Shown piece by piece: positions 34,701-55,511 of a DNA stretch of 64,000 nucleotides. Below the pieces are notes generated by a model. It saw only the letters and a list, made by a program, of their open reading frames with translations, was not told the DNA's origin and made no database searches. The position numbers and the translations under genes were made by a program. The DNA lies in assembly GCA_024279915.1 (NCBI GenBank), contig JAJRRB010000092.1:1-64000 (forward strand). The letters run 5' to 3'. Positions within the stretch are counted from its first letter, which is position 1. Each line of letters begins with the position of its first letter. The DNA comes from Deltaproteobacteria bacterium. GTDB lineage: Bacteria > Desulfobacterota > Desulfuromonadia > Desulfuromonadales > BM103.

Positions 34701-34807
34701 TATTGACTCAGGTATGCCCTGGAACGAAAGCTGTCGGTTAATCTGACTGTGAGAAACGGTCTTGATCAATACCAGGGCAATCTTTGTTGAGAAAAGGAAA
34801 CTTATTG

Positions 34808-35236
34808 ATGGTTGCAAGTATCGGTGAGAGCGGTGAATTTGAACAGCTTGGTATCCCGTTATTTTCTGACGCCGTTTCAGCAGGCTTTCCCAGCCCGGCA
34901 ACAGATTATTGTGAACGCAAACTGGATCTGAATGAACTTTGTATTCAGAAGCCTGCCGCCACCTATTTTGTGCGAGCACAGGGTGATTCTATGATTGATG
35001 CAGGCATCTTTCCCGGCGATGTTCTGGTTATAGATCGGTCGATTGACGCGTCTCACGGCGACATAGTGATTGCTGCTGTGAACGGTGAGTTAACCGTCAA
35101 ACGGTTGGAGACGAAGCCGCAAACAAGACTGGTCCCCATGAACAGTCAGCATGCTCCGATCGTTATCCCTGAGGAAGCAGATCTGGAAATTTTCGGCGTC
35201 GCAACCAATGTGATACATAGCCTCCGTAAATCATGA
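34808..35236 (+). CDS. umuD: UmuD-like translesion synthesis subunit (S24 peptidase)
   Basis: 142 residues from ATG 34808; an upstream TTG at 34784 is possible. The cleavage site is Ala-Gly in Ser-Ala-Gly-Phe-Pro; the catalytic Ser is in Gly-Asp-Ser-Met near 61, and Lys in Thr-Val-Lys-Arg near 97. RecA-stimulated self-cleavage yields UmuD', which binds UmuC to form pol V. The umuC start overlaps by 4 bp (ATGA), as in classical umuDC operons. Confidence 0.9.
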   Translation: MVASIGESGEFEQLGIPLFSDAVSAGFPSPATDYCERKLDLNELCIQKPAATYFVRAQGDSMIDAGIFPGDVLVIDRSIDASHGDIVIAAVNGELTVKRLETKPQTRLVPMNSQHAPIVIPEEADLEIFGVATNVIHSLRKS

Positions 35237-36495
35237 GCACTACGTTTGCCCTGGTTGATTGCAATAATTTCTATGCAAGCTGCGAACGGTTGTTTCGTCC
35301 AGACTTAAAAAACACCCCGCTTGTGGTTCTCTCAAACAACGATGGCTGCATCGTTGCGCGCAGCCAGGAGGTCAAGGACCTGGGGATCAAGATGGGTACA
35401 CCTCTCTTTAAAGCAAAAGAAGAGATAGACAGGTACGGCATTCAGGTTTTTTCCTCCAACTACACTCTCTACGGCGACATCTCTGCCCGGGTCATGCAAA
35501 CGCTTGAGCAATTCAGCCCCAATGTCGAAGTGTATTCAATCGATGAAGCCTTTTTGGATGTGTCCGGTATCCGTGCCTTGAGCGATCATGGCCAATTGAT
35601 CCGGTCCATCGTCATGCAACATGTTGGCGTCCCTGTTTGTGTCGGTATCGCACCAACCAAGACCCTCTCCAAACTGGCTAATAATGCGGCCAAAAAGTTC
35701 AAGGCAACCCAAGGCGTTGTTGATCTCACCGCTCCGGAACGTCAAAAGCGTCTGCTGGAGATCACACCCGTCTCCGAGGTCTGGGGCGTTGGGCGTAAAT
35801 TGACCGAAAGTCTGCACAGTAGCGGTGTTGACACGGCCTTGCGTTTGGCCCAGATGGAGCCTTGTCGAGCCCGTCAACGCTACTCTGTGGTCTTGGAGAG
35901 GACCATTAGCGAATTGAACGGAGAAAGCTGTCTTGAGCTCGACGAGACATGGCAGCCCAGACAACAAATCATGTGTTCTCGATCGTTCGGTGAGAAGCTG
36001 ACGCAATACACCGACCTTAAGGAGACCGTGTGTGAGTTTGTAGCAAGGGCAACCGAAAAGCTGCGTCGAGATAAGCAACTGGCCATGATGGTGAACGTTT
36101 TTATCCGCACCAGCCCCTTCGATAAGACGGGACCTAACTACTCCAATACGGCGACAGGCACGCTTACCCAGCCAAGCTCTGATACGCGCAAGATCCTGGA
36201 TCTGGCAATCAGGCTGTTCGACATGGTTTGGCGAGACGGCTATCGCTATGCCAAAGCAGGGGTCATGTTGGGGGACTTCTGCTCTCCTGATGATGTTCAG
36301 CTCAGCCTCTTCGACAGTCAAAAAGGCCGTTCAGAGAATGAAGCTTTAATGAAGGTGATCGACACCATTAACCACGGTGGTCAGGGCAATATATGGTTTG
36401 GTGGCCAACGGCCGCAAAAGGATTGGTTTATGAGGCAGGCTAATGTTTCTCCTGCATATACAACACGTTGGAGTAGCATTCCTGAAGTGAAATAA
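35233..36495 (+). CDS. umuC: UmuC-like DNA polymerase V catalytic subunit
   Basis: 420 residues, the usual UmuC length. Catalytic carboxylates appear in Val-Asp-Cys-Asn-Asn-Phe-Tyr-Ala-Ser (Asp9) and Tyr-Ser-Ile-Asp-Glu-Ala-Phe-Leu (Asp/Glu near 102-103). The thumb and little-finger regions follow, and the C-terminus has a beta-clamp-like Gln-Leu-Ser-Leu-Phe motif. It copies damaged DNA with low fidelity in the SOS response. Confidence 0.94.
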   Translation: MSTTFALVDCNNFYASCERLFRPDLKNTPLVVLSNNDGCIVARSQEVKDLGIKMGTPLFKAKEEIDRYGIQVFSSNYTLYGDISARVMQTLEQFSPNVEVYSIDEAFLDVSGIRALSDHGQLIRSIVMQHVGVPVCVGIAPTKTLSKLANNAAKKFKATQGVVDLTAPERQKRLLEITPVSEVWGVGRKLTESLHSSGVDTALRLAQMEPCRARQRYSVVLERTISELNGESCLELDETWQPRQQIMCSRSFGEKLTQYTDLKETVCEFVARATEKLRRDKQLAMMVNVFIRTSPFDKTGPNYSNTATGTLTQPSSDTRKILDLAIRLFDMVWRDGYRYAKAGVMLGDFCSPDDVQLSLFDSQKGRSENEALMKVIDTINHGGQGNIWFGGQRPQKDWFMRQANVSPAYTTRWSSIPEVK

Positions 36496-39899: not shown

Positions 39900-40541
39900 A
39901 TGATGACCTGCACCCGCCTTGTCGAACATTTGTTTAGTAGTTACCGTCGCCAGATCCTTGCATTGCTGTTGTTGCGCCCACATGAGCGTTATTACGTCCG
40001 TGAGATCGCCCGTTTGACCGGAATCAGCCCAGGCTCGCTGCACCGCGAACTGAAGCAGCTGGCAAAAACCGGTTTGTTATTGCGCGAGGAGGCTGGTAAT
40101 CAGGTGCGTTATTATGCCGACCAGACCTGCCCGATATTCGAGGAACTGGCCGGCATTTTCCGCAAGACCATTGGCTTGGCCGATGTTTTGAGTGAGGCGT
40201 TGTTGCCCTTAGGCAATGAGGTAAAGCTTGCCTTTGTCTTCGGTTCAGTGGCACAGGGCCAGGAGCATGCCGACAGTGACATCGATTTGTTCGTGTTGGG
40301 ATCGGTGGATTTTGTTGCAGTGGTAAGAACCTTGGCCGATACCCATGCTCGACTGGGTCGCGAGGTGAACCCGGTAGTGATGGAGCAGAATGAATTTTTG
40401 CAGAAATACCATGAGGGAGATCGCTTTATCCGTCGGATTGCTGGCGAAGCGAGAATCTTTGTAACAGGAGGGGAAAATGACTTTGCAAAACTTGTTGAAG
40501 ATCGGGCAGCTCAAGGTTCACAGCACGGACTCTGCTGTTGA
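39900..40541 (+). CDS. wHTH and MNT-type nucleotidyltransferase fusion
   Basis: 213 residues, ATG 39900 with AGGGGAA upstream. Residues about 10-75 are an ArsR-like winged HTH (Tyr-Tyr-Val-Arg-Glu-Ile-Ala-Arg-Leu). Residues about 105-180 form a minimal nucleotidyltransferase: Phe-Gly-Ser-Val-Ala-Gln-Gly then Asp-Ser-Asp-Ile-Asp-Leu. In MNT/HEPN toxin-antitoxin systems the MNT AMPylates or neutralises the HEPN partner. The partner here is broken (see 40477 and 41680). Confidence 0.82.
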   Translation: MMTCTRLVEHLFSSYRRQILALLLLRPHERYYVREIARLTGISPGSLHRELKQLAKTGLLLREEAGNQVRYYADQTCPIFEELAGIFRKTIGLADVLSEALLPLGNEVKLAFVFGSVAQGQEHADSDIDLFVLGSVDFVAVVRTLADTHARLGREVNPVVMEQNEFLQKYHEGDRFIRRIAGEARIFVTGGENDFAKLVEDRAAQGSQHGLCC

Positions 40542-40618: not shown

Positions 40619-41677
40619 ATGAGCAAACCCAAAAGACAGGAAAAAGACAAAGGAAGGCAGTTGATCCGCAATAGTACGGCTGAGTTTCTGATCTTCACCA
40701 GGCAAAACGGCGAACAAAGCATCGAGGCCCGGTACGAGGATGAAACAATCTGGTTGTCTCAAAAGTTGATGGCTCAGCTTTTTGATGTAGATGTGCGAAC
40801 CGTTAATGAGCATCTAAAAAACATTTACGAACAGGATGAGTTAGCTCGTAAGGCAACTCTCCGGAATTTCCGGATAGTTCAAATCGAGGGCAAGCGAGAA
40901 GTCTCCAGAAACGTTGATTTCTACAATCTCGATGCCATCATCTCAGTGGGATACCGGGTCAATTCGATACGAGCTACCCAGTTTCGTCAGTGGGCGACTC
41001 AAGTCCTGAGGGAGTTTGCTGTCAAGGGTTATGTGCTTGACAAAAAGCGCATGGAAAACGGCACTTTCCTTGGTGAGGATTATTTTGAACGCCTGTTGGA
41101 AGAGATCCGGGAGATCCGGCTCAGTGAGCGTCGTTTTTACCAGAAAATCACCGATATTTATTCCACCAGCGTTGATTACAATAAAGATGCCCCGACCACC
41201 AAGACTTTCTTTGCCAAAGTGCAAAACAAGCTGCATTTCGCCATCCATGGTAATACGGCGGCCGAGTTGGTCATACAGCGGGCGGACAGCACTAAAACCA
41301 GTATGGGACTCACCTCGTGGGAAAAGGCCCCTGATGGCAAGATTGTGAGAACCGATGTATTCATTGCCAAAAACTATCTGGACAAAGATGAGCTGGCGTC
41401 ACTAGGACGCATCGTCAACGCTTACTTGGATCTGGCAGAAGAACGAGCGAAGCGGAAAATCCCCATGACTATGGAAGACTGGGCCAAGAGGGTAGATATG
41501 TTTCTGGAATTTGACGACCGTGAAATTCTGCTGGGCAGCGGGAAAGTTACCGCTAAGCTAGCCAAGACCCACGCCGAGGATGAATTTGAAAAATACCGTA
41601 TTGTGCAGGACCGCCTATTCGAGAGCGATTTTGACCGGGTTATCAAACAGTTGGAAGGGAAAGATGGAGAGATATAA
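40619..41677 (+). CDS. rhuM: RhuM-family protein
   Basis: 352 residues. Family features: Tyr-Glu-Asp-Glu-Thr-Ile-Trp-Leu-Ser-Gln-Lys-Leu-Met-Ala-Gln-Leu-Phe near 40, Val-Asn-Glu-His-Leu-Lys-Asn-Ile and Arg-Gln-Trp-Ala-Thr; the rest is helical. RhuM was first described in Salmonella pathogenicity island 3 and is common in mobile islands; the biochemical function is unknown. It sits inside a split HEPN-like gene, between its N-terminal and C-terminal remnants. Confidence 0.87.
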   Translation: MSKPKRQEKDKGRQLIRNSTAEFLIFTRQNGEQSIEARYEDETIWLSQKLMAQLFDVDVRTVNEHLKNIYEQDELARKATLRNFRIVQIEGKREVSRNVDFYNLDAIISVGYRVNSIRATQFRQWATQVLREFAVKGYVLDKKRMENGTFLGEDYFERLLEEIREIRLSERRFYQKITDIYSTSVDYNKDAPTTKTFFAKVQNKLHFAIHGNTAAELVIQRADSTKTSMGLTSWEKAPDGKIVRTDVFIAKNYLDKDELASLGRIVNAYLDLAEERAKRKIPMTMEDWAKRVDMFLEFDDREILLGSGKVTAKLAKTHAEDEFEKYRIVQDRLFESDFDRVIKQLEGKDGEI

Positions 41678-41894: not shown

Positions 41895-42683
41895 ATGCGC
41901 TGTCACGAAGTAGATTACACCATCATCGGCGACGATATGCAGATGGTCCAGGTTGAGCTCGATCACGGTGAGACGGTGATTGCCGAGGCCGGGGCGATGA
42001 CTTACATGGAGCAGGACATCCAGTTTGAAGTGCGTATGGGCGATGGTGCCGAGGCTGATCAGGGCGTGATGAGCAAGCTTTTCAGTGCTGGCAAGCGGGC
42101 CATGACCGGAGAGTCGCTCTTCATCACTCATTTCACCAATCAGGGGCGGGCCAAGCGACATGTCGCGTTCGCAGCGCCTTTTCCGGGTAAGATTATTGCG
42201 ATGGATTTAGCCAAGCTTGGCGGTGAGATCCTGTGCCAGAAAGATTCTTTCCTCTGTGCGGCTCTCGGCACCAAACTCGACATCGCTTTCCAGCGTCGCT
42301 TCGGCGTTGGTTTTTTCGGCGGCGAGGGCTTTATCCTGCAGCGCTTGCAAGGTGATGGCATGGCCTTCGTGCATGCCAGTGGCACAATTATCGAGCGGCA
42401 ATTGCAGGGCGAGACCTTGCGGGTTGATACCGGTTGCCTGGTGGCTTTTGAGCCTGGGGTGAATTACAACATTGAGCAAGCAGGTGGTTTGAAGAGCATG
42501 ATGTTTGGTGGCGAGGGGATGTTCCTGGCGACCTTAAGCGGGTATGGCAAGGTTTGGCTGCAGAGTTTGCCTTTCAGCCGCTTGGCCGATCGGATTATTG
42601 CTCATGCGCCGAAGGCGGGTGGGTCGAGTAAGGGTGAGGGGTCGGTGCTTGGTGGGTTAGGGCGGATGTTGGATGGGAATTGA
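41895..42683 (+). CDS. AIM24/TIGR00266 family protein
   Basis: 262 residues. The TIGR00266/AIM24 fold shows [11 protein letters not shown] near 30, Phe-Ile-Thr-His-Phe-Thr-Asn near 75, and Ala-Phe-Glu-Pro-Gly-Val near 190; the ends are rich in Gly. The cellular role is unclear. The coding DNA is GC-rich compared with the following HNH genes, which suggests a boundary of the transferred segment. Confidence 0.85.
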
Positions 42684-42730: not shown

Positions 42731-43660
42731 ATGAACACATCGATAAACGAACAGCTCCTGGAACGGATCAGGTCGATCAATGTCAACAGGAGTGGTGATC
42801 GCAGGGCTCCCCATAAGCCGCTTCTGCTTCTCGTTGCGATTGCTAACCTGTTGCAAGGCAAGCATGAACTGAGCTTTACAGAGGTCGAGAGCCTTCTTCG
42901 TCCTCTTCTGAACGCATATGCTCCACCGGTAAGTGGTCAGCATGAACCAAAGTTGCCCTATTGGCATCTTCGTTCTGATCAATTGTGGGAGATCTCAGGT
43001 GACAGCGAACTTCCTCGTCAGCAGGGGGGCTTTACGCAGATGGAGGGACTTCGAACCAGTTCTGGCCACCTCCCCGAGAGGTTTGCGAAGGCTTTGCAGC
43101 GGAGTGAAACTCTGGTCGATACTGTCGTTAAAATGGTTCTGGATGCGCACTTCCCGGAATCGCTTCATGATGACATCCTTGCAGCTGTCGGACTGACGTC
43201 TTTTGCTGAGAACATGGTTGCTGAAGAGCAAGCACCTTATGGACTTGCCAGGAAACGTGATCCGAAATTCAGGGAGAAGGTTTTACGAGCTTACGAGCAT
43301 CGATGTGCTGTTACCGGATTTCGCGCTGCTCTTGGAGGTTCGTATTTCGGCTGTGAGGCAGCGCACGTTAAATGGCATGCTTATGAAGGGCCGGATACAG
43401 TCGAAAATGGTCTGGCTATGGAGCCTACTCTTCACAAGCTTTTCGATGCCGGTGCCTGGAGCCTCACTGATGACAGAAGGATTCTGGTCTCGGCGGATTT
43501 TACCGGGAGTGATGAAGCTGTAGAGAAGATTCGCAGTCTTCATGGACGTCCTCTTAGGCCGCCGCAACAGGGGATGCCGTTGGTGTCGATGGAGTATATT
43601 AGGTGGCATCGGGAGAAGGAGCTCGGCGGTGTTTTCCGCTATCCGGCGCTGTCTCTTTAG
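42731..43660 (+). CDS. Phosphorothioate-binding SBD and HNH endonuclease (type IV restriction-like)
   Basis: 309 residues from ATG 42731; ATG 42683 would add 16 residues. The N-terminal half matches the sulfur-binding domain (SBD) of ScoMcrA/SprMcrA-like enzymes (Arg-Arg-Ala-Pro-His-Lys-Pro-Leu-Leu-Leu-Leu near 18 and Pro-Tyr-Trp-His-Leu-Arg near 78). The C-terminal part is an HNH nuclease (Ala-Ala-His-Val-Lys-Trp and Asn-Gly-Leu-Ala-Met). It would cut DNA carrying phosphorothioate modification from foreign sources. First of a rightward DNA-processing set, but separated from the next gene by 20 bp. Confidence 0.82.
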   Translation: MNTSINEQLLERIRSINVNRSGDRRAPHKPLLLLVAIANLLQGKHELSFTEVESLLRPLLNAYAPPVSGQHEPKLPYWHLRSDQLWEISGDSELPRQQGGFTQMEGLRTSSGHLPERFAKALQRSETLVDTVVKMVLDAHFPESLHDDILAAVGLTSFAENMVAEEQAPYGLARKRDPKFREKVLRAYEHRCAVTGFRAALGGSYFGCEAAHVKWHAYEGPDTVENGLAMEPTLHKLFDAGAWSLTDDRRILVSADFTGSDEAVEKIRSLHGRPLRPPQQGMPLVSMEYIRWHREKELGGVFRYPALSL

Positions 43661-43680
43661 GAGTAGGGGGGATATCTTTA

Positions 43681-44442
43681 ATGCTTAGAGTTGGATGGAC
43701 GCGACAGCAGTTATTGGTGGCTTTCAAACTCTATTGTCAACTGCCTTTTGGGAAGTTGCATTCCCGCAACCCTGTGATCATCAAATATGCCGAATTGATA
43801 GGGCGGACACCATCCGCTCTGGCGATGAAGCTGACCAATATCGCCAGTCTCGATCCGGTCATTACTGCAACGGGTCGCAAGGGGCTGAAGGGTGCATCGG
43901 CTGCCGACAGGTCTATGTGGAACGAGATGGAATCTGACTGGGAGCAATTTGCCCTTGAATTGCAGAATGCTACATCCGATTTAGATACTCCAGTTGAGGA
44001 TCCTCAAGAGGCCGAACTGGATTACACCGGTGTTGATAAGATTGCTCAGGTCAAAACCCGAGTAGGTCAGGATTTTTTCCGCAAGTCGGTTTTAAGTGCT
44101 TACCATGACCAGTGCTGTATTACCGGACTAGCCGTACCTAAATTGTTGGTTGCCAGTCACATTGTCCCGTGGCGTGTTGATGTAGCTAACCGGCTCAACC
44201 CGAGAAATGGGCTCTGTCTATCGATGCTTCACGACAAGGCTTTTGATGCCGGGATGCTTACTATTGCAGAAGATATGACGGTTTGTGTTTCGAGGAAATA
44301 TGCGAAAAAAAGTGATGCTTTTTATGATTCTGCATTGCTGGCTTATGATGGCCAACCCATGAAAATGCCAGAGAAATTTGTTCCTGACTCTGAGTTCCTG
44401 GCATATCATCGAGAATCTGTTTTTGAGAACGAGTGTAAATGA
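43681..44442 (+). CDS. HNH endonuclease
   Basis: 253 residues from ATG 43681 (AGGGGGGA upstream; the ORF extends to 43603 without a better start). The N-terminal part starts Leu-Arg-Val-Gly-Trp-Thr-Arg-Gln-Gln-Leu and has a linker; the C-terminal HNH_2-type domain is at about 130-220: Cys-Cys-Ile-Thr-Gly-Leu, Ala-Ser-His-Ile-Val-Pro-Trp, Asn-Gly-Leu-Cys-Leu, and His-Asp-Lys-Ala-Phe-Asp. Its target is unknown. Lies 31 bp before the giant helicase, likely the same transcript. Confidence 0.85.
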   Translation: MLRVGWTRQQLLVAFKLYCQLPFGKLHSRNPVIIKYAELIGRTPSALAMKLTNIASLDPVITATGRKGLKGASAADRSMWNEMESDWEQFALELQNATSDLDTPVEDPQEAELDYTGVDKIAQVKTRVGQDFFRKSVLSAYHDQCCITGLAVPKLLVASHIVPWRVDVANRLNPRNGLCLSMLHDKAFDAGMLTIAEDMTVCVSRKYAKKSDAFYDSALLAYDGQPMKMPEKFVPDSEFLAYHRESVFENECK

Positions 44443-44473
44443 GTTGATTGTGGAAAATGGGCTTTGTTGCTGA

Positions 44474-47400
44474 ATGAAATTACAAGAGCTTCTCTCAAAA
44501 TCTCTGTTTCTTGATCTCGAAACCACCCTTGAAGGTAAAATCTTCAAAATCGGTGCTGTTTTTCAGAGTCATACTTTTCAAAAACAAGGACGATTCAAGC
44601 TTGCAGAAGCTCTGTCTGAGCTTGACCAGTTTGGTGCTGATGCCACCTATGTGCTTGGGCACAATATCTTAGGCCACGACTTACCACTACTGGAGAGTGT
44701 TTCCCCTCAACTTGAATTGCTGAAAAAACCGGTCATCGACACACTTTATCTTTCCCCCTTAGCTTTTCCGGAAAACCCCTATCACCGCCTGGTCAAAGAC
44801 TACAAGCTGGTTCGTCAATCAATAAATGATCCGGTAGCCGATGCTCAGCTCTCCGCCTCTATTTTTGCGGATCAATGGGAGGCGTTTGAGCAGCTTCAAC
44901 AACAAAGCCCCCAAGTCCTCGATTTCTACCGGTTCTGTTTTGCAAATGCTGATGAAGCTTCATTGAAATGGGAAGGTTTATCCGAGGTGTTTAAGAGCCT
45001 TGGCGCTCAGAAGGTAGAGCTTGAAAATTCACAAAGGGTGCTCATTGAAGTTACAGATGGAAAAGTCTGTAAGTCTGCGCTGAGGACCGTCGCTAAACAA
45101 TATGTCTGGGACCCTGAAGAATGCGCAGCCCTTGCTTACTGCGTCGCCTGGCTAAGAGTCTCAGGCCACAATTCTGTATTGCCACCCTGGGTCAGAAAGG
45201 AATTCCAGAAGACCGTTCCAATCTTGAGGCAATTGCGAGACGTCTCCTGTGAAGATCCGAGTTGTGAATACTGCAAGTTGAATCACGACCCGGTCGGGCA
45301 ATTGGAACGCTATTTCGGATTCTCTGCCTTTCGTCCCTCTCCATCAGCCTCCGATGGCTCAAGTTTGCAGGAAGGCATTGTGCGTCACGGCATGAACGAC
45401 CAGTCACAGTTGGCGATTCTTCCCACAGGAGGGGGAAAGTCCCTCTGCTTCCAATTGCCTGCTTTGGTACGTAACTACCGTCGTGGCACCTTGACGATTG
45501 TCATCTCACCGTTGCAAGCCTTGATGAAAGATCAGGTTGATAATCTGGTCGCGAATACCGGAACACCCTTTGCTGCGGCACTCTATGGGATGTTGACCCC
45601 GCCGGAACGTGGGCAAGTTCTCGAATCGGTTCGCCTCGGCGATGTCGCCATTCTTTATGTTTCCCCTGAGCAGTTGCGTAACCGCACCTTCAAGGAAGTC
45701 ATCAGTCAACGAGAGATCGGTTGCTGGGTCTTTGACGAGGCGCATTGTCTTTCAAAATGGGGACACGACTTCAGAACTGACTATCTCTACGCGGCTCGTT
45801 TTATCCGTGAATTTGCCAAAGAGCAGAAAGTCCCAATCCCTGCGATTACCTGCTTTACAGCAACGGCTAAAAAGGATGTATCAGAAGAGATTGTAGACCA
45901 CTTCCAGAGTAACCTTGGCCGGGAACTACGTCTGTTCGAAGGTGGGGTAGACCGCAATAATCTGCAATTCGAAGTCCAGACAGTCAGCCGCGCGGAGAAA
46001 ATGGAGCGTGTTTACAATCTTCTTGACGAGCGGTTGGAATCTGATGGCGCGGCAGTGGTGTATGCCGCGACGCGTAAACAGACTGAAGATATCAACGAAT
46101 ATCTGGTACGCAAAGGCATCTCCTCTGCGGCATTTCATGCCGGATTGAAAACACCGATCAAAAAGAAGATCCAGGAAGATTTCATCGCTGGTGAGATTCA
46201 GGTGATTTGTGCAACAAACGCCTTCGGTATGGGGATTGACAAGGAAAACGTGCGACTAGTTATCCACGCCGAAATCCCGGGATCATTGGAGAATTACCTT
46301 CAGGAGGCAGGCCGGGCAGGGCGGGATCAAAAAGTTGCCGAGTGCGTGTTGCTCTATGACGAAAAGGACATTGAAACTCAGTTCAAGATGGGGGCTTATT
46401 CCGAGCTAAGCCGACGCGACATCGCGCAGATCCTGCGGGGCCTGCGGATGGCTAAAAAGAACAAGGATGGTGAAATTGTCATTACTACCGGAGAGATCCT
46501 TCGCAACGATAAAGTAGAAACCGGTTTTGATCAGTCGGACAATCAGTCTGATACCAAGGTCAAGACAGCCGTTTCTTGGTTAGAACGCGCTGGTTTCGTT
46601 GAACGTAACCATAACAACACTGGAGTCTTCCAAGGTCGCCCGGCCGTACGTAATCTGGATGAGGGCCAAGAAAAAATATCCAAACTGGATTTACCGATAG
46701 TGACAAAGCGGCGCTGGATGGCGGTGCTTTCCGCGTTGATGAATGCCGATCCTGATGAGGGCTTAAGCGCGGATGAGTTAGCTGAATTGCCCGAATTCAT
46801 AGATCCTCCTGAGCAAGCTGATGAGGGAAATTCTAGACATCAAATTTCGGACTCTCAACGTATTCTGAAAACTCTGAACGACATGGCAGAAGCAGGGTTG
46901 ATTAAACGTGATCTACTGCTTACTGCTATTGTTCGTTACAAGGTTGGCAATCACTCTGTGCTGGCTTTGGAGAAGGTCTGTGAGCTGGAGACGGCTCTAC
47001 TGAAACTTCTTCAGGAAGAGGACCCTGACGCCGAGGGTTGGCTCCATTTTTCACCCCGACGTTTAAATCAGCGATTATTAGACCAAGGGTTTGTCTGCGT
47101 CCCAGAATTCCTGGTGTCCATATTGAAAAGTCTGGCAGGAGATGGCAGAGGGTTAGCTGGGCAGCGAGGTAGTTTGGAACTGGGTTATCAAAGTGCCGAT
47201 CATCACCGAGTCAAATTACATCGCGACTGGGAAGCATTAATCAAAACTTCTCAGATACGTTCATCTCTAGCTGGAACCCTTCTTAAGGCAATCATCGACA
47301 AGGTCCCGGAGTCAACGACACCTAGCGCAGAGATCCTTGTCGAGTTTTCTCTTGATGATCTTGTTGCGGCTCTGAAACAAGACCTCTTCCTCTCCGGCCA

Positions 47401-49699
47401 GGTAAAAAATGAACTGGCAGCTATTGAGCGTGCTTTGATGTTCATGCATGAGCAAAAAGTCATTACCCTTCAGCAGGGGCTGGCTGTCTTTCGCCAGGCG
47501 ATGACAATCCGGTTGCTTGAGCAGAAACGGCGCTACACTAAGGGGGATTACAGCCCCCTGGAGCATCATTACAAAGAGCGGATATTTCAGGTTCATGTAA
47601 TGAATGAATACGCCCGGCTTGGTGTTGAGAAAATCAAGCAGGCTATTGGCTTGGTGACAAGTTACTTTGCGATGGATAAACGAGATTTTGTTCAACGCTT
47701 TTTCGCCGGACGCAAAGAGGTGCTCGATCGAGCGACCAGCCAGGATTCATTCCGGAGAATTGTCGATAACCTGGAAAATCCTGTTCAGATGGCCATTGTC
47801 TCTGCGCCGATCAATGAAAACATGTTGATTCTGGCAGGCCCGGGATCGGGGAAAACCCGCGTGGTTGTGCATCGATGCGCCTATCTGTTGAGAGTCGAGC
47901 GAGTGCCTTCCCGGGGCATTCTCATTCTTTGTTTCAATCGACAGGCAGCAAGTTCACTGCGGCACCGACTTTGGGAACTGGTGGGTACCGATGCGATTGG
48001 CGTTACTGTGTTGACCTACCATGGCCTTGCTATGCGTTTGACCGGGACATCCTTTGCCGACAGGTTAACTTCAGATGGGGATGAGGGCATCGATTTTAAC
48101 GAACTCATTGATCAGGCCGTTCGCTTACTGAAGGGCGAAGAAGACCTTCCAGGCATGATACAGGATGAGTTACGTGATCGGCTGTTGTCTGGGTACCAGC
48201 ATATCCTGGTTGATGAATATCAGGACATCGATGAGCGGCAGTACGAACTCGTCTCAGCGATCGCAGGGCGAACGCTGGAGGATGAAGATGCCAAGCTGAC
48301 CATAATGGCTGTTGGGGATGATGATCAGAACATCTATACCTTTCGCGGCACTAATGTCGCTTTCATCCGTCAATTTGAAAAGGACTATCAAGCAAAGTTC
48401 CATCACCTCGTGGAAAACTTTCGTTCTTCCGCCAATATCATTGCGGCCGGTAATGTTCATATTGCTCAAAACCGTGATCGGATGAAGATCGAGTATCCTA
48501 TCCGAATCAATAAAGGGCGTGAACGTCTGGAACCTGGGGGGGATTGGACGCACCTTGACCCTTTCACCAAGGGGCGAGCCCAGATTCTTAAGGTTGCTGA
48601 CTACAATTCCCAGGCGAATGTTCTGCTAGCTCAACTCGAAAAGTTGAAAAAGTGTGACCCGTCACTGAATTGGTCCGACTGTGCGGTTTTAGCCCGCAGA
48701 CACGAAGAACTAGCAACGATTCGTGCCGCTCTTGAATACGCCGAGATACCTGTTGCTTATGTGCGTCAAGACTTGAGCTTACCGATCGGCAGGGTGCGTG
48801 AAATCCGGCAGTTCTTTGCTGCTCTGGAGCCATTACGAAATGAGCTGAGGCGTGCCAGTGATCTTGAAACCTTGCTCTCCGAGGTGGCTGGAACAAAAAC
48901 CCTATCGCAAAACACCTGGTGGAGCTTGCTGTCTGCTTGCCTGCAATCATGGCATGTCGAAACCGGGAATTCTGAGCTTCCGGTAAAACAGGCCATTGAT
49001 TCACTGTGGGAAGATTTGGTTGAGCAAAAGCGTGACCGGTTTATTGGTCGAGGTGTTTTCCTGAGTACCGTTCATGCCGCCAAGGGGACTGAGTTTGATC
49101 ATGTCTTTGTTGCCGGTGGTAATTGGACTGCGAAAAAAGGGGAGGAAGAGGAAGAACGTCGGGCTTATTACGTTGCCATGACCAGGGCCAAGCTGACTCT
49201 GACTCTGTTTCAACGTGATGATGAACCTAACCCGTATTCTGATGTATTAGAAAACAAACTTTCCGGTGATCAGTTAGTGACCCTGACTCCACAAATTCAG
49301 AAGCCGATACCAGCCTCTGTGTTACAGCGACGCTACGACACCATTGGACTGAGAGATGTTTATCTTGATTACGCCGGTCGTATGCCCTCGTCCATGACGG
49401 TTCATCATCATCTTGGCAAAATAGGGGTCGGTGACCTTGTGCAACTCAAGAGTTCTGACTCTAAATTGGAAGTCTGCAACTCGGCCGGGCATCCTGTTGC
49501 TGTGTTGTCAAAGGAAGCCAAGGACCGATGGTCGTCCTCTCTTCAAAACATTGAGAGCATCAGGGTCATTGCAATGATTGAACGCCGGTCAGATGATTCG
49601 AAAGATTCTGATTACAGTAAACTACTCAAGGTTGATAGCTGGGAAGTGCCTGTGTTGGAGGTTGTTTGGTCTGGATTGCATCCTAATGCAGAGATGTAG
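44474..49699 (+). CDS. Exonuclease, RecQ helicase and UvrD helicase fusion
   Basis: 1741 residues, one of the longest genes here. Residues 1-130 are a DnaQ-like 3'-5' exonuclease: Asp14-x-Glu16 (ExoI), Asn64...Asp69 (ExoII) and Asp123 (ExoIII). A Cys cluster at 259-267 may bind Zn. RecQ follows with Pro-Thr-Gly-Gly-Gly-Lys-Ser at 317-323 and Asp-Glu-Ala-His at 421-424, and RecQ C-terminal region. An UvrD-like SF1 helicase has Walker A near 1118 (Gly-Pro-Gly-Ser-Gly-Lys-Thr), Asp-Glu-Tyr-Gln-Asp near 1246, and Val-Gly-Asp-Asp-Asp-Gln-Asn. Such a triple fusion could degrade and unwind DNA from ends or gaps; the role is inferred from its context among nucleases and a methyltransferase. Confidence 0.82.
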   Translation: MKLQELLSKSLFLDLETTLEGKIFKIGAVFQSHTFQKQGRFKLAEALSELDQFGADATYVLGHNILGHDLPLLESVSPQLELLKKPVIDTLYLSPLAFPENPYHRLVKDYKLVRQSINDPVADAQLSASIFADQWEAFEQLQQQSPQVLDFYRFCFANADEASLKWEGLSEVFKSLGAQKVELENSQRVLIEVTDGKVCKSALRTVAKQYVWDPEECAALAYCVAWLRVSGHNSVLPPWVRKEFQKTVPILRQLRDVSCEDPSCEYCKLNHDPVGQLERYFGFSAFRPSPSASDGSSLQEGIVRHGMNDQSQLAILPTGGGKSLCFQLPALVRNYRRGTLTIVISPLQALMKDQVDNLVANTGTPFAAALYGMLTPPERGQVLESVRLGDVAILYVSPEQLRNRTFKEVISQREIGCWVFDEAHCLSKWGHDFRTDYLYAARFIREFAKEQKVPIPAITCFTATAKKDVSEEIVDHFQSNLGRELRLFEGGVDRNNLQFEVQTVSRAEKMERVYNLLDERLESDGAAVVYAATRKQTEDINEYLVRKGISSAAFHAGLKTPIKKKIQEDFIAGEIQVICATNAFGMGIDKENVRLVIHAEIPGSLENYLQEAGRAGRDQKVAECVLLYDEKDIETQFKMGAYSELSRRDIAQILRGLRMAKKNKDGEIVITTGEILRNDKVETGFDQSDNQSDTKVKTAVSWLERAGFVERNHNNTGVFQGRPAVRNLDEGQEKISKLDLPIVTKRRWMAVLSALMNADPDEGLSADELAELPEFIDPPEQADEGNSRHQISDSQRILKTLNDMAEAGLIKRDLLLTAIVRYKVGNHSVLALEKVCELETALLKLLQEEDPDAEGWLHFSPRRLNQRLLDQGFVCVPEFLVSILKSLAGDGRGLAGQRGSLELGYQSADHHRVKLHRDWEALIKTSQIRSSLAGTLLKAIIDKVPESTTPSAEILVEFSLDDLVAALKQDLFLSGQVKNELAAIERALMFMHEQKVITLQQGLAVFRQAMTIRLLEQKRRYTKGDYSPLEHHYKERIFQVHVMNEYARLGVEKIKQAIGLVTSYFAMDKRDFVQRFFAGRKEVLDRATSQDSFRRIVDNLENPVQMAIVSAPINENMLILAGPGSGKTRVVVHRCAYLLRVERVPSRGILILCFNRQAASSLRHRLWELVGTDAIGVTVLTYHGLAMRLTGTSFADRLTSDGDEGIDFNELIDQAVRLLKGEEDLPGMIQDELRDRLLSGYQHILVDEYQDIDERQYELVSAIAGRTLEDEDAKLTIMAVGDDDQNIYTFRGTNVAFIRQFEKDYQAKFHHLVENFRSSANIIAAGNVHIAQNRDRMKIEYPIRINKGRERLEPGGDWTHLDPFTKGRAQILKVADYNSQANVLLAQLEKLKKCDPSLNWSDCAVLARRHEELATIRAALEYAEIPVAYVRQDLSLPIGRVREIRQFFAALEPLRNELRRASDLETLLSEVAGTKTLSQNTWWSLLSACLQSWHVETGNSELPVKQAIDSLWEDLVEQKRDRFIGRGVFLSTVHAAKGTEFDHVFVAGGNWTAKKGEEEEERRAYYVAMTRAKLTLTLFQRDDEPNPYSDVLENKLSGDQLVTLTPQIQKPIPASVLQRRYDTIGLRDVYLDYAGRMPSSMTVHHHLGKIGVGDLVQLKSSDSKLEVCNSAGHPVAVLSKEAKDRWSSSLQNIESIRVIAMIERRSDDSKDSDYSKLLKVDSWEVPVLEVVWSGLHPNAEM

Positions 49700-49710
49700 T
49701 GGAGAGGCCT

Positions 49711-50346
49711 ATGGAAGAAAATCGGGAACGTCGAGCTATTATCAATAAGCCTATGGTCGATTTTTACCAAACAAATGCCAAAGAGTATTTCGATTCCACA
49801 GCGCGAATTGATGCGACACCTTTTCTTCTGCCATTATCAAAAGAACTGCAACCCGGCGCATCCATCATGGATATTGGTTGTGGTTCCGGGCGTGACTTGA
49901 GGTGGCTTGCAACCCGAGGGTTCAACCCTACCGGGTTAGAACGCTCCCCAAGTCTGGCTGCCATGGCACAAGAATTCTCTGGTTGCCCGGTGATCGAAGG
50001 TGATTTCCTCATCTTCAATTTTGCCAATCTTTCCTTTGACGCTCTTCTCCTAGTTGGCGCTCTGGTTCATGTTGAGAGATCCCTTTTGCCAGAAGTCCTG
50101 CAACGGATCAGTGGAGCTTTAGCTGCGGATGGTTTGATCTATCTCACCCTTAAAGAGGGCACGGGGGAACGTGTCGCTGATGATGGCCGGGTGTTTACCC
50201 TTTGGTCTCAAGAGCAGCTGGAAGCAATATTTCGCAAGCTTCAATTCAAGGTGAAAGATTTTTCCCGTCAAGTATCAAAGCTGAGATCATCGGATGTCTG
50301 GCTCGGTTATCAGCTCAGCTCTGGAGAAAGCAATGACAGTCGTTGA
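49711..50346 (+). CDS. SAM-dependent methyltransferase
   Basis: 211 residues from ATG 49711 (GGAGAGG ribosome site; a GTG at 49699 is possible and abuts the helicase stop). Class I MTase fold: motif I Met-Asp-Ile-Gly-Cys-Gly-Ser-Gly-Arg-Asp near 52, then Gly-Leu-Glu-Arg-Ser and a Val-Gly-Ala-Leu-Val motif. It lacks the typical DNA-MTase Pro-Cys or Asn-Pro-Pro-Tyr motifs; the substrate may be a protein or small molecule. The next gene starts 14 bp inside its end, so they are translated together. Confidence 0.84.
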   Translation: MEENRERRAIINKPMVDFYQTNAKEYFDSTARIDATPFLLPLSKELQPGASIMDIGCGSGRDLRWLATRGFNPTGLERSPSLAAMAQEFSGCPVIEGDFLIFNFANLSFDALLLVGALVHVERSLLPEVLQRISGALAADGLIYLTLKEGTGERVADDGRVFTLWSQEQLEAIFRKLQFKVKDFSRQVSKLRSSDVWLGYQLSSGESNDSR

Positions 50347-53300
50347 TCACGACTTACGCAATCTCCTGGCCCCGCAAGGGTTTTCCCATGTCAGAACCGT
50401 TGACTCCGGCTATATCTATGCGGATGGCAAAGGAACCTGCATCATCATTGATGTGGGAATATGCAGTCTTGCCGAATACCAATATGTCGACTACACCAGC
50501 ACCCAGAATTATCTGGTTCATCACTATGATCGACTCTTCCGCTTCCTTTATGATCCTGATGAACCGCTGGATAAACTCCTGAAAGAGATACAGTTCTTTC
50601 TTGATGGTGGTGAAGAAGTTGAGGCGATAAAACACTTTGGTCGCAATCGGACAGAACAGGATATTGATCCTACACGCCCGGAATCAACCTTTGAAGACGG
50701 TTTCATAGCAGCCTTCGGAGACTCTTTTCGTGGTTCTCTTGCCCGCGAGTTCCCCTATTATGATTGTGAGGGTAAACGTCGATTTGTCGATTATGTCTTG
50801 TTTGCAAAAGATGGCAAAATTGCCATCGAACTGAATGGTGAATCCTTTCATCATCCAGCGGCGATTGGTCCGAAGAGATATAGATCCCAGTTGTTCAAAC
50901 AAAATTCACTTGCAGCAGACGGTTTCAAAACTTTTCGCTGGTCGCTGCGTGGCATGGCTGATCGAGAGAAGTTTGTACAGGAACTGCAGGTCTTCTTTGG
51001 TAATCCGTCAGCTTTCCTGTCACGGCCGCAATTCAGGCTGGATCGACAGCTTGCGACGATTGATCTTCATGAACACCAGATAGATGCCCTGGGACAGCTC
51101 GCCGAGGAACGAAAAAACGGTCGTCGTAATTTTCTTGTCGTCTTGCCTACGGGGACTGGCAAGACGGAAATTTTCATCAAGGACATTGAATCCTTTCTTT
51201 TGGCTGATTTGTCGTTCAAGGCCCTGATTCTGGTTCCCAGTCGTAAATTGCGTACCCAGATCATCGCCCGTCTCAAATTGCGGCTTCCCGGGCATCGTAG
51301 TCATATTGGCGATGATTTATTCACTGCTGTCAGCTCTTTTGTCGTTGTGCAGACCTATACTTTTATGCACAGACACTATTACCAGGTTGAAGGTGGTCGA
51401 TTCGATTATATTGTCGTTGATGAGGCCCACCATGCTGCGGCCGTTGGTCTGCGTCGGGTTCTGGAACATTTCAACCCTGAACATCTCATCGGTATGACCG
51501 CCACTCCAGTGCGTTTAGATAATCAAAAACTGGAAGAAATTTTTGGCGAATACGAGTCCTCTCTAAGCCTGGCAGATGCGGTTACCAAGGGTCTGGTGGC
51601 ACCGATTCGATGTTTCAGGATCAAGTCCAATCTTGATCTTTCTGAGGTACGCTTTAATGGTCGTGAATATGTTAAAAGCGATCTTCAGAGAAGTCTGAAT
51701 ATCCCTTCTCGTGATCAACTCATAGTTACAATGCTCAACAAGTATTTCAGCGGTTCTTTCAGTGATAAGCAAGGGGTGGTGTTCTGCGTCGATATTGCTC
51801 ATGCTCGCAGGATGGCTGAGGCACTTAACAACGCTGGCATAACCGCTTTGGCAGGGGACGGTAAGGATCGACGACATGCTGATGCTGCTCAGCAAAAATA
51901 TACGACAGGTGAAGTCCGTTTCCTGTGTGCCTGTGATCTGCTGACTGAAGGCTGGGATGCGCCTCAGACGCAGATTCTGGTAATGGCCAGGCCGACCTTT
52001 TCCAAGGTTCTGTACACTCAGCAATTGGGACGCGGGCTGCGTCATTATTCTGGTAAAGAAGCTCTCTATGTGCTCGATGTTGTGGATAATTATGGAGCCA
52101 AACTTGTCCCTATGTCTCTGCATGCACTGCTTGGCGTTCGAACCTATTGTCCATTTGCCGACCTCATCATGACGGAGGCCACTTCCCCTCAGGACGAGAT
52201 TATTACACTGGACGGTCTATACGAAGATATTCGCCGTATTGAACCGATAGATATCCTGACCTTTGATAGCTTGTATGGTGATTTCCTCAACGAGGAACAG
52301 TTGGCCCGGGAGCTTTTTGTCTCCACCGGGAGTGTTAAGGCGTGGCTGAAAAACAAATCTATTGCCCCTGATTACTCCCATCCATTCGGTCGGTCTACCT
52401 TGCATTTTTTCGATCCCGAAAAGGTTGAAGCTATACGCGCCGCGAAGGGTTTGTCAGCTCATACCGCAGAGACACGCCGCCATGACTTTATGGAATTTCT
52501 TGAGAAGCGGGACTACACTTTCTCCTATAAGATTATTTTTCTGCTGGCTTTTTTCAAAAACAGAAACCGCCGAGGCGAGGCAAGTTTACCAGAGGTGCTG
52601 GATCTTTATCAGCGGTTTTATCTTAAGATTTACCAGAGAGTCGGTCGCTGTGAAAAAAAGAAAAGCCCTTACAGTCGCGATGATTTTCTGGCTGATAGCG
52701 CTGAACTTCAAGCCAATTTACTCCGGAATCCTTTTGAGAAATTCGAGCGAAAAAGATTTTTCCACCATTGTCGGGATCTGAATTATATTGCCATTGATTC
52801 TGTGTTGCAGGAACAGCTGACTAAAGAGGATTATCAATCCATCAGAACGCAGATGGTCGAAGATCTTCAGAAATATTTCAGCCAAATTGATATATCGCTC
52901 GAAGAGCAGGATTATAGTTTCCTCTTGCCATCGAAAAATGATGAACAGCCGAAAAAGAGTGAGGCAACAAAGTTCAAATTTAACTTTATTGACAACCCAG
53001 CGGAAGCAGATCGTTTCTCCGATGTGATTCCGTTTTATTCGCTGGCGATAGCCGCTGGTTCTTTCCTTGAATCTTCATTGCCCCTGGAACCAGAAAGTTG
53101 GCTGGGAATGGCAGGTTTGACCGGACGTGCATCGTTTGATGTCTCCATGTTTGTAGCCCAGGTTCAGGGTAAATCTATGGAACCCATAATCCCGGCTGGT
53201 AGTTATTGTCTGTTCACCCGGAATGTTGCTGGTACGCGCCAGGGAAGGGTGGTTTTAGCTCGGCATGGTGGCCGGATAGATGAAGAATCAGGCGCGTCTT

Positions 53301-53476
53301 TCACCGTGAAGCGCTACCATAGCAAGAAACGAATTGATCCTGACTCGGAATGGGTTCACGAGAGTATTGTTTTAAGACCGGAAAATCCTGATTACGATGA
53401 AATTGTAATTCCGGAGGAAGAGGCTGCCGCTGGTGATTTCGCAATTGTTGCTTTTCTTGTTGAGGTGTTATCCTAA
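50333..53476 (+). CDS. PD-(D/E)xK nuclease, SF2 helicase and S24 peptidase fusion
   Basis: 1047 residues from ATG 50333 (GGAGAAAG upstream; overlaps the methyltransferase by 14 bp). After an N-terminal region of unknown fold, about 110-230 resembles a DUF559/Vsr-like nuclease (Asp153 and Glu166-Leu-Asn168 pattern, His-His near 172). An SF2 helicase follows with Leu-Pro-Thr-Gly-Thr-Gly-Lys-Thr near 272 and Asp-Glu-Ala-His near 363, then Arg-Gly-Leu-Arg-His near 560-565. The last 120 residues resemble an S24/LexA-type peptidase: Gln-Val-Gln-Gly-Lys-Ser-Met-Glu-Pro-Ile with Ser and the Phe-Thr-Val-Lys-Arg-Tyr Lys. A self-cleaving switch fused to a nuclease-helicase is unusual. Confidence 0.8.
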   Translation: MTVVDHDLRNLLAPQGFSHVRTVDSGYIYADGKGTCIIIDVGICSLAEYQYVDYTSTQNYLVHHYDRLFRFLYDPDEPLDKLLKEIQFFLDGGEEVEAIKHFGRNRTEQDIDPTRPESTFEDGFIAAFGDSFRGSLAREFPYYDCEGKRRFVDYVLFAKDGKIAIELNGESFHHPAAIGPKRYRSQLFKQNSLAADGFKTFRWSLRGMADREKFVQELQVFFGNPSAFLSRPQFRLDRQLATIDLHEHQIDALGQLAEERKNGRRNFLVVLPTGTGKTEIFIKDIESFLLADLSFKALILVPSRKLRTQIIARLKLRLPGHRSHIGDDLFTAVSSFVVVQTYTFMHRHYYQVEGGRFDYIVVDEAHHAAAVGLRRVLEHFNPEHLIGMTATPVRLDNQKLEEIFGEYESSLSLADAVTKGLVAPIRCFRIKSNLDLSEVRFNGREYVKSDLQRSLNIPSRDQLIVTMLNKYFSGSFSDKQGVVFCVDIAHARRMAEALNNAGITALAGDGKDRRHADAAQQKYTTGEVRFLCACDLLTEGWDAPQTQILVMARPTFSKVLYTQQLGRGLRHYSGKEALYVLDVVDNYGAKLVPMSLHALLGVRTYCPFADLIMTEATSPQDEIITLDGLYEDIRRIEPIDILTFDSLYGDFLNEEQLARELFVSTGSVKAWLKNKSIAPDYSHPFGRSTLHFFDPEKVEAIRAAKGLSAHTAETRRHDFMEFLEKRDYTFSYKIIFLLAFFKNRNRRGEASLPEVLDLYQRFYLKIYQRVGRCEKKKSPYSRDDFLADSAELQANLLRNPFEKFERKRFFHHCRDLNYIAIDSVLQEQLTKEDYQSIRTQMVEDLQKYFSQIDISLEEQDYSFLLPSKNDEQPKKSEATKFKFNFIDNPAEADRFSDVIPFYSLAIAAGSFLESSLPLEPESWLGMAGLTGRASFDVSMFVAQVQGKSMEPIIPAGSYCLFTRNVAGTRQGRVVLARHGGRIDEESGASFTVKRYHSKKRIDPDSEWVHESIVLRPENPDYDEIVIPEEEAAAGDFAIVAFLVEVLS

Positions 53477-53785: not shown

Positions 53786-54445
53786 ATGTCTGTGCCTGCT
53801 AATCCAAAGATTTACCACATCGTTCATGTTGACCGCTTGTCCTCAATCCTTGCAGATGGTGCCATATGGTCCGATGCGGAGGTTATTCGTCGTAATCCGC
53901 TTGGAACAACGATTGGCATGAATGGCATTAAGCAGCGACGGCTTAATGAATTGACTTTGACCAGCCATCCACAATTGTATGTTGGCGGTTGTACTCCTTT
54001 CTATCTCTGTCCACGTTCTATCATGCTTTACCTCCTCCACCAAGCGAACCACCCTGATTTAACTTATCGTGGCGGTCAAGGGCCGATCATCCATCTTGAG
54101 GCAGATCTACTGCAAACCGTTGCCTGGGCTAATCAGAATCAAAAGCGTTGGGCATTTACCCTTTCAAATGCAGGTGCCCGCTATTTTGAAGACCGATGTG
54201 ACCTGACACAATTGGATGAGATTAACTGGAATGCGGTTCAGGCAAACAAATGGAGTGGGAATGGCGTTTCACCAGCAGTAAAGGAAGGTAAACAGGCTGA
54301 ATTTCTTATAGAACATTCTTTCCCGTGGGAACTAGTGTCACGTATTGGCGTGAATTCGGCAGAGATCCACCAGCAAGTCAGTGTGGCATTACAAACGGCA
54401 ACGCATATTCCACCTGTTGAAATCAAAACTAACTGGTATTATTGA
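53786..54445 (+). CDS. darT: DarT DNA ADP-ribosyltransferase toxin
   Basis: 219 residues. DarT (DUF4433) features: His-Ile-Val-His-Val-Asp-Arg-Leu near 12-19, Tyr-Leu-Cys-Pro-Arg-Ser-Ile-Met-Leu-Tyr near 73, and the catalytic segment Lys-Gln-Ala-Glu-Phe-Leu near 170. DarT attaches ADP-ribose to thymidine on single-stranded DNA, blocking replication; it defends against phage in several genera. The antitoxin DarG follows directly. It lies 310 bp after the helicase-peptidase gene, so not in that operon. Confidence 0.93.
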   Translation: MSVPANPKIYHIVHVDRLSSILADGAIWSDAEVIRRNPLGTTIGMNGIKQRRLNELTLTSHPQLYVGGCTPFYLCPRSIMLYLLHQANHPDLTYRGGQGPIIHLEADLLQTVAWANQNQKRWAFTLSNAGARYFEDRCDLTQLDEINWNAVQANKWSGNGVSPAVKEGKQAEFLIEHSFPWELVSRIGVNSAEIHQQVSVALQTATHIPPVEIKTNWYY

Positions 54446-54461
54446 TATGAGAGAGGCTGGT

Positions 54462-55511
54462 ATGATTAACTACAAAACAGGCGATATTCTAGCTGAAGAC
54501 GCCGAAGCCATCATTAATACAGTGAATTGTGTTGGGGTTATGGGGCGCGGTATTGCTCTTCAGTTTAAGAAAGCTTTCCCCGAGAACTATAAGGCTTATA
54601 CGATTGCTTGCAAGGGTGATGAGGTTCAGCCTGGAAGGATGTTCGTTTTTGAAACCGGACAACTTACCAATCCGCGTTATATTATCAATTTTCCGACTAA
54701 ACGACACTGGCGTGGTAAGAGCCGTATTGAAGATATCGAGTCAGGTCTCACAGCTCTTAAAGAAGTCATTGCTAAAAAGAATATCCGTTCGATCGCCATC
54801 CCACCACTTGGTAGCGGCCTAGGTGGGTTGGACTGGCCTTCGGTTAAGACTAAAATTGAGTCACAACTTTCTGGCCTGGACGATGTACAGATCATTATAT
54901 ATGAGCCTATGGGTGCGCCTGAAGCCAACGAGATGGTTCACAACCGAGATGTTCCCAAAATGACACCAGGTAGGGCAGCTCTCGTTGAATTGATGCATCG
55001 CTATCTCGGTGGTCTGCTTGATCCTTTTGTGACGTTGTTAGAAGTACACAAACTCATGTATTTCATGCAAGATGCTGGTGAACCTCTAAGACTCAAATTT
55101 CAGAAAGCACCTTACGGTCCTTATGCGGAAAACCTCCGCCATGTTCTAAACGCAGTTGAAGGTCACCTAGTCTCAGGTTATGCCGATGGTGGTGACGCGC
55201 CCGATAAACAATTGAAACTGGTTCCCGGTGCCATAGAAGATGCGAATGCCTTCCTAGAAAGCCACGCGGAAACCCGTAATCGTTTCAACAAAGTCGCAGA
55301 ACTTGTTGGTGGTTTTGAGTCACCGTTCGGTCTTGAACTTTTGGCCACAGTACACTGGATTGCCAAGCAAGAATCTGTTTGTTCGATGAATGATGTAGTG
55401 ACAAAATTCCATGATTGGAATGATCGAAAGAGGCAGTTCTCTCCTCGTCAGATTGCCCTCGCCGTTGATGTTTTGTCTCATAAGGGTTGGATTGATGAGT
55501 TTAAATCCTGA
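54462..55511 (+). CDS. darG: DarG antitoxin with macro domain
   Basis: 349 residues from ATG 54462, which has GAGAGG upstream (a frame reading to 54381 is not needed). The N-terminal 155 residues are a macro domain (Asn-Thr-Val-Asn-Cys-Val-Gly-Val-Met-Gly-Arg-Gly) that removes ADP-ribose from DNA. The C-terminal domain, about 170-349, is a DarG partner domain that binds DarT. Only 16 bp separates it from darT, so it is the same operon. Confidence 0.93.
   Translation: MINYKTGDILAEDAEAIINTVNCVGVMGRGIALQFKKAFPENYKAYTIACKGDEVQPGRMFVFETGQLTNPRYIINFPTKRHWRGKSRIEDIESGLTALKEVIAKKNIRSIAIPPLGSGLGGLDWPSVKTKIESQLSGLDDVQIIIYEPMGAPEANEMVHNRDVPKMTPGRAALVELMHRYLGGLLDPFVTLLEVHKLMYFMQDAGEPLRLKFQKAPYGPYAENLRHVLNAVEGHLVSGYADGGDAPDKQLKLVPGAIEDANAFLESHAETRNRFNKVAELVGGFESPFGLELLATVHWIAKQESVCSMNDVVTKFHDWNDRKRQFSPRQIALAVDVLSHKGWIDEFKS

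Follow-up and report, generated by a model that had tools for sequence, protein, structure and literature searches.

Do five closely packed genes with the features of nucleases, helicases, and a methyltransferase form one new defense system, or do they merely stand side by side? This question is raised by positions 42731–53476 of contig JAJRRB010000092.1 from a Deltaproteobacteria bacterium (GenBank assembly GCA_024279915.1), of which we analyzed the first 64,000 nucleotides, hereafter the window. An earlier note, made from the sequence alone, had proposed a new defense-like operon for this run, whose genes we call P1 to P5. The genes do look defensive, yet as a set of five they do not recur, and what we see appears to be several DNA-attacking genes stacked one behind another, not a single new system. 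Its real unit is the P4–P5 pair, which is conserved across many bacterial phyla and is the new part of the run, while the class of P1 has already been described. On our best reading, P4–P5 would be an uncatalogued nuclease-helicase defense module, of which the form bearing an S24 domain may be released by DNA damage.

In the list of open reading frames (ORFs) of the window, the five lie on the + strand, with the starts and stop ends given below and spacings of 20, 31, 11, and −14 bp, in agreement with the earlier note, which had reported five rightward genes with these gaps. Residues of P5 are numbered from the methionine at 50333. The features are as follows.

42731–43660, + strand: P1, predicted SBD-HNH phosphorothioate-dependent endonuclease, a separate module; HNH at 43304–43465 (NF045808, HNH_2)
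43681–44442, + strand: P2, HNH nuclease, a separate module; HNH at 44113–44265 (HNH_2, PDLC04132)
44474–49699, + strand: P3, a separate module with DEDD-type exonuclease motifs (by eye), RecQ at about 45302–46402, and UvrD at about 47774–49213 (Pfam)
49711–50346, + strand: P4, class I S-adenosylmethionine (SAM) methyltransferase, partner of P5 (domain match, model, adjacency or fusion to P5); homologs suggest a possible start at 49753
50333–53476, + strand: P5, nuclease-helicase-HTH-S24 protein (HTH, helix-turn-helix), overlapping P4 by 14 bp (domain matches, alignment, model)
50333–51037, + strand: predicted PD-(D/E)XK-type nuclease domain of P5 (alignment; topology in the model)
51053–52102, + strand: superfamily 2 (SF2) motor of P5, HsdR/RadD-like (Pfam, alignment, structure comparison)
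52280–52460, + strand: HTH region of P5, weak matches (HTH_17)
53021–53473, + strand: S24 tail of P5 with putative cut A908–G909 (53054–53059), Ser948, and Lys993 (Peptidase_S24, 6e-9; alignment)

Conservation of the P4–P5 pair

A scan of the genome collection with three P5 sequences returned 134 relatives, the best 80 of which were kept as loci with flanks of 0–10 kb. A P4-like methyltransferase lies at most 120 bp from P5, or is fused to it, in 66 of the 80: on the same strand upstream in 53 and downstream in 8, on the opposite strand upstream in 3 and downstream in 1, and fused in 1. The pair is retained while gene order varies, overlaps of 31–37 bp between the two genes are common (as counted from longest-ORF starts), and the P4 and P5 distance matrices correlate (r 0.69, 62 pairs), with 0 of 2000 permutations as high, a measure that still includes shared ancestry. 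Outside the 66, a P4-like gene stands at the contig edge in locus L089 and with one gene between in L094. In the fused case (L072:9326–12433), a methyltransferase and a P5-like helicase share a single ORF of 1035 amino acids (aa), a natural P4–P5 fusion.

Other partners were found as well. A MazG-like protein of 107–112 aa adjoins P5 in place of P4 in L052, L055, L057, and L058, and an HIT protein does so in L063 and L070; a cytosine DNA methylase stands beside P5 in L043, from which P4 is absent, and P5 has no recognized partner in L034, L059, L087, L088, and L098. Neither Pfam nor NCBIfam matched the small protein of the first four loci, and a PDB search with one member gave nothing convincing; its EExxE...ExxD residues are what we take to be a MazG-type motif.

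Relatives of P5 fall under at least 10 phylum labels, bacterial plus one archaeal, some of the rows being metagenome bins whose labels may err. In a P5 tree of 78 rows, built by a quick method with SH-aLRT support only, rows from Campylobacterota, Bacillota, and Bacteroidota are grouped, a Nitrospirota row falls within the window's supported branch, and Methanosarcina rows are present, whose partner is MazG-like rather than P4. This mixing of phyla fits horizontal spread. P5 was not found in 10 genomes of the same genus and 11 of the same family, several of them incomplete, and G045 is the only other genome of 58 with a full-length P5 (65% identical, with P4 directly upstream). Such absence from close relatives is as expected of a mobile trait. 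A scan of 137 neighbors of P5 relatives gave matches at E ≤ 1e-10 to SspC, DrmA, IetS, several PDC candidates, and restriction models, each in single neighbors; five have ResIII and four DUF3427 domains, and many are metabolic. No relative of P5 or P2 turned up when viral contigs were scanned with single proteins; among the 80 of 540 relatives kept from the viral alignment scan, the listed matches are all to the helicase core at 28–36% identity, and no place covering 80% of P5 was found among 377 matching plasmid records. One scaffold labeled 'Bacteriophage sp.' from human feces (MT836124, L012) carries a P4–P5 pair behind a DUF262/HNH-type gene; its flanks, with transporter-like genes, suggest by eye a bacterial stretch.

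The company kept by P1, P2, and P3 differs from this. In a phylum sample of 297 genomes, searched with P1 and P2 at E ≤ 1e-25, P3 at 1e-110, and P5 at 1e-60 (at most two candidates scored per genome for P3 and P5), matches were found in 1, 6, 4, and 2 other genomes for P1, P2, P3, and P5, and no other genome appears in two of these lists at the thresholds used. Relatives of P1 or P2 occur in 0 of the 80 P5 loci and a long P3 relative in 1 (L057), and the plasmid records that match P1 (14) and P2 (5) have no accession in common. Of the last four proteins, whose co-occurrence the earlier note had proposed to check, P4 and P5 are kept together across phyla, and P2 and P3 do not form a unit with P5. 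These counts disfavor one five-gene system, and although the five genes are near gapless and share one orientation, we consider it very improbable that they constitute a single cooperative defense operon. Two loci are partial exceptions, L057, where the P3 relative lies 1.2 kb from a P5 relative, and genome G294 (L198:8809–11725, minus strand), where a P4-like methyltransferase, a diverged SBD-HNH-like ORF, and a P2 relative follow one another, P5 and P3 being absent. The SBD-HNH-like ORF, of 328 aa, shares the strand of the P2 relative and precedes it; its HNH region is 36% identical to that of P1, and its N-terminus is, by eye, SBD-like. This is weaker company than the list thresholds called for. 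The P1 matches in L200–L203 fall on the P2 relative itself.

Domains of P5 and its methyltransferase partner

Scans with Pfam, PADLOC, and NCBIfam bear out the domain assignments of the earlier note for P1, P2, and P4 and for the helicase and S24 parts of P5. Pfam recognizes a ResIII/HsdR-like helicase and Peptidase_S24 in P5, and no confident Pfam match was found for the nuclease domain in the window protein. At E ≤ 1, REase_MTES_1575 is matched by 15 of 30 members, with 1.2e-5 as the best value, and DUF559 by two; residues E117, E139, D153, E166, N168, and Q190 within positions 1–235 are invariant in alignments of 47 and 30 rows. We read the order of elements in the AlphaFold2 model as that of a PD-(D/E)XK fold, in a model (mean pLDDT 78, pTM 0.43) whose domain packing is unreliable. 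The motor has invariant K277, D363, E364, and H366 (47-row alignment), and in structure it (residues about 241–590) comes nearest to the DNA repair protein 6jde (Z 24.9, rmsd 6.2, 363 aligned) and to RadD (8h5y_A; Z 24.6, rmsd 4.7, 355 aligned). SauUSI and HsdR also ranked highly in Foldseek, and TFIIH, FANCM, and RIG-I helicases score nearly like RadD, the structural comparison resting mainly on the motor (residues 240–651). After the motor, 20 of 30 members match HTH_17 at E ≤ 1 (best 1.5e-5), and a block with invariant NPFEKFERK follows this HTH region. Sequence searches of the PDB returned weak chains only for the nuclease and HTH parts and nothing for the S24 tail. As judged from its sequence, P5 joins an ATP-driven translocase and a nuclease in one protein, as a restriction-type enzyme does.

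By model match, site, and Ser/Lys residues, the tail of P5 is predicted to be a self-cleaving domain of the S24/LexA type. Aligned with the window's own UmuD, it shares Ala-Gly, the GxSM serine, and the VKR lysine with the self-cleaving proteins UmuD and LexA; in these, however, S24 is carried by a repressor or polymerase subunit, whereas in P5 it is the tail of a nuclease-helicase. Ala/Cys-Gly and Ser are present in all 17 aligned rows (15 P5 tails, the tail of the P3 relative in L057, and the window's UmuD), and Ala-Gly, the Ser of GxSM, and Lys in all 11 rows of the window's type (the window, L016, L023–L029, L042, and L046). In L042, an in-frame stop leaves S24 as an ORF of its own. The P5 tree requires four changes of S24 state, at least three of them by supported branches, which indicates that the tail was gained or lost repeatedly.

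AlphaFold2 models P4 with high confidence as a class I fold (pLDDT 95.3), and its best PDB match is the uncharacterized 3e23 (30% identical), the others being small-molecule, RNA, and protein methyltransferases. Motif IV of DNA methyltransferases reads [DNS]PP[YFW], or PC in enzymes that form m5C. The former is present in 0 of 35 P4 rows, and a PC dipeptide occurs in one (L048), which we judge to be chance. Missing motif IV and the swapping of partners argue against simple DNA marking by P4, and by the motif a DNA-protecting methylase is disfavored. Residues 43–181 of P4 match positions 282–416 of the 492 in MADS Mad2 (PADLOC PDLC04134, E 2.7e-14), a likeness that takes in no more of this larger protein than its generic methyltransferase core.

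Proposed mechanism and competing explanations

The earlier note had recognized no named defense system in the combination, and PADLOC 2.0.0 (2023 library) likewise has no match for it: the 18 matches of the window P5 are confined to residues 237–596, and none extends beyond the motor. In NCBIfam, neither P4 nor P5 reached the cut-off of any model, and the dnd-associated restriction pair (TIGR04095/TIGR04096) scored below its cut-offs (35.6 versus 600 bits for P5, 16.9 versus 150 bits for P4). No description of the P4–P5 pair was found in the literature searched, which covered few subscription journals and, for DefensePredictor (PMC13092281) and a BREX survey (PMC12839542), a term search only. 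The type I enzyme HsdR and SauUSI-type ATP-dependent restriction enzymes, which like P5 combine an SF2 translocase with a nuclease, are among the nearest folds. However, P5 reaches 110 bits on the EcoAI HsdR model against a cut-off of 550, a specificity subunit was not seen, P5 is without a PLD or DUF3427 domain, and P4 is by motif not a DNA methylase. Hachiman HamAB, described in the portions of its report consulted (PMC12278908) as a DNA-destroying nuclease-helicase that reacts to DNA damage, provides a precedent for the damage-answering nuclease-helicase proposed here. Both couple a nuclease to a helicase, but in those portions the nuclease is a separate subunit, HamA, the helicase is Ski2/Brr2-like, and no methyltransferase or S24 was seen, whereas P5 fuses nuclease and motor. 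The window P5 matches HamB models at E 0.006, and one HamB model picks up 17 of 47 relatives (best 9.6e-9), as it does other helicases; HamA, the nuclease gene that accompanies HamB in Hachiman, is not among the matches listed for seven window proteins (for P3, the best 25 of 82).

With somewhat better than even confidence, we favor a reading in which the run is made up of anti-DNA modules that are for the most part independent (P1, P2, P3, and P4 with P5), P5 being a restriction-type effector that DNA damage would set free in its S24 form. The data show the gene pair, how it is conserved, and its conserved residues; from these we infer the nuclease activity, the role in defense, the cleavage and its dependence on RecA, and the substrate of P4. 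The HsdR/RadD-like motor would feed DNA, at the expense of ATP, into the fused PD-(D/E)XK-type nuclease, with the HTH region making DNA contact. In the window's branch, the C-terminal UmuD/LexA-like domain would restrain P5 until phage attack or DNA damage gave rise to filaments of RecA on single-stranded DNA (ssDNA), upon which S24 would cut the A908–G909 bond and shed itself, freeing the nuclease-motor. The target of P4 is probably not DNA but a small molecule, a nucleotide, or P5 itself, and P4 could set or reset the activity of P5. A more daring version, which we regard as fairly unlikely, describes a zymogen-like immune nuclease: the S24 tail on P5 and, separately, on the P3 relative of L057 would be an on-switch under SOS control, and the small partner, whether methyltransferase or, in other loci, MazG-like or HIT protein, would make or clear a nucleotide that licenses P5.

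Two further explanations draw on the same findings. If P4–P5 were an unusual restriction-modification system, P4 would mark self DNA, P5 would cut unmarked DNA, and S24 would only tune the level. The closeness of the motor to the folds of HsdR, RadD, and SauUSI, the methyltransferase beside a nuclease-motor in so many loci, and the cytosine DNA methylase beside P5 in L043, where P4 is absent, all speak for this, but none of the 35 P4 rows has the expected motif, in six loci P4 gives way to a MazG-like or HIT protein, and no specificity subunit was seen; we consider it unlikely. Alternatively, P5 could be an SOS DNA-repair factor with a RadD-like motor and a nuclease, its S24 acting as in UmuD and P4 being a housekeeping partner, a possibility that counts against the favored reading. 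RadD is indeed the nearest named fold, the P5 tail aligns with UmuD, and umuDC genes lie about 14 kb upstream of P5. However, the patchy spread of P5 (two other genomes of the phylum sample, 0 of 21 from the same genus or family), its mixing of phyla in the tree, and the defense-model matches among its neighbors make a repair role distinctly unlikely in our estimate.

Several observations weigh against the favored reading of independent modules with a damage-released P5. The S24 tail is fused in only 15 of the 80 P5 relatives (plus one split, L042), and therefore is not the basic mechanism of the P5 family. The S24 profile recognized 10 of these 15 tails, two of them weakly, and the other five were assigned by inspection of the tail, three of them also being aligned. 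Four aligned marine rows (L031, L033, L035, and L037) have Cys-Gly and Ser but Arg for Lys, by which cleavage may have been weakened or ended. A recognized P4 is lacking in 12 of the 80 P5 loci, P4-like methyltransferases are also found without P5 (L198), and the counts of defense genes among neighbors stand without a control set. Full modularity is itself made slightly less likely by G294, whose neighboring P1-, P2-, and P4-like genes suggest that P1 and P2 may be a loose pair.

The interest of the pair lies in a widespread P5, mostly beside P4 in bacteria and with invariant nuclease and motor residues, for which PADLOC and NCBIfam nonetheless hold no model of the pair. Its S24 branch would be a simple, testable design in which a DNA-damage signal proteolytically releases a DNA-destroying motor, and the exchange of the methyltransferase for a MazG-like or HIT partner is a hint that such immunity is regulated through the handling of nucleotides.

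The separate modules P1, P2, and P3 and their surroundings

Judged by its sequence, P1 is a typical phosphorothioate-dependent SBD-HNH enzyme: it scores 258.1 bits against the curated model NF045808 (PT-DNA_restrict), whose cut-off is 180, and has the architecture of enzymes such as EcoWI and SprMcrA, with no difference seen in the portions of the report consulted (PMC7461809). In those portions, EcoWI is described as acting on foreign phosphorothioate DNA. DndC and DndD, the two genes searched for, gave no match in this 98% complete genome, control genomes also falling below both cut-offs, and since they were not found, P1 may target foreign phosphorothioate DNA. The earlier note had named a precise match to a described system as grounds for abandoning its proposal; P1 falls into an enzyme class already described, and the P4–P5 pair survives.

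P2 has an HNH_2 match and a nearly full-length match to the PADLOC HNH model PDLC04132 (E 8.7e-127), and its relatives occur, by eye, in several contexts. One lies within a cluster of cytosine methylase, large ATPase-like, HNH, and Vsr-like genes (L200:2717–9787, families by eye), another adjoins a NERD-type gene (L203, by eye), and a third a RhuM-like gene (L199, by eye), a kind of gene also present in the window.

For P3, which the earlier note had described as a triple-domain protein, Pfam confirms the RecQ-type DEAD/Helicase_C and UvrD domains; the N-terminal DEDD-type exonuclease was assigned from a motif set read by eye, and Pfam gave no match there at E ≤ 0.01. Relatives covering at least 80% of the query occur in 24 plasmid records, and no relative of P1, P4, or full P5 was found near P3 in the 5 of these 24 loci inspected. 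Homologs standing alone, which the earlier note had also held to speak against a new system, are found for P3 in these loci. In one of them, L010, a type I restriction system is followed, some 7 kb from P3, by a protein whose HNH domain resembles that of P2 (38% over 127 residues). In L057 (245–5659), the exonuclease-RecQ-UvrD protein has its own C-terminal S24 domain, including Ala-Gly, Ser, and Lys, and lies upstream of a P5 relative without S24.

Upstream of the run, a TIGR00266 gene (41895–42683) ends 47 bp before P1, so that the transcript may begin earlier than P1; a scan for promoters and terminators gave counts close to those from shuffled sequence. A RhuM-like gene lies at 40619–41677 (by eye; NCBIfam gave no match), and the UmuD and UmuC genes at 34784–36495. 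Of the five toxin-antitoxin-type loci mentioned in the earlier note, the RelE-like one at 33873, the MntA-like one at 39900, and the MqsA-like antitoxin at 59356 fall below their own cut-offs, while RelE at 60428 is above its cut-off and DarTG (53786–55511), just downstream of P5, is solid.

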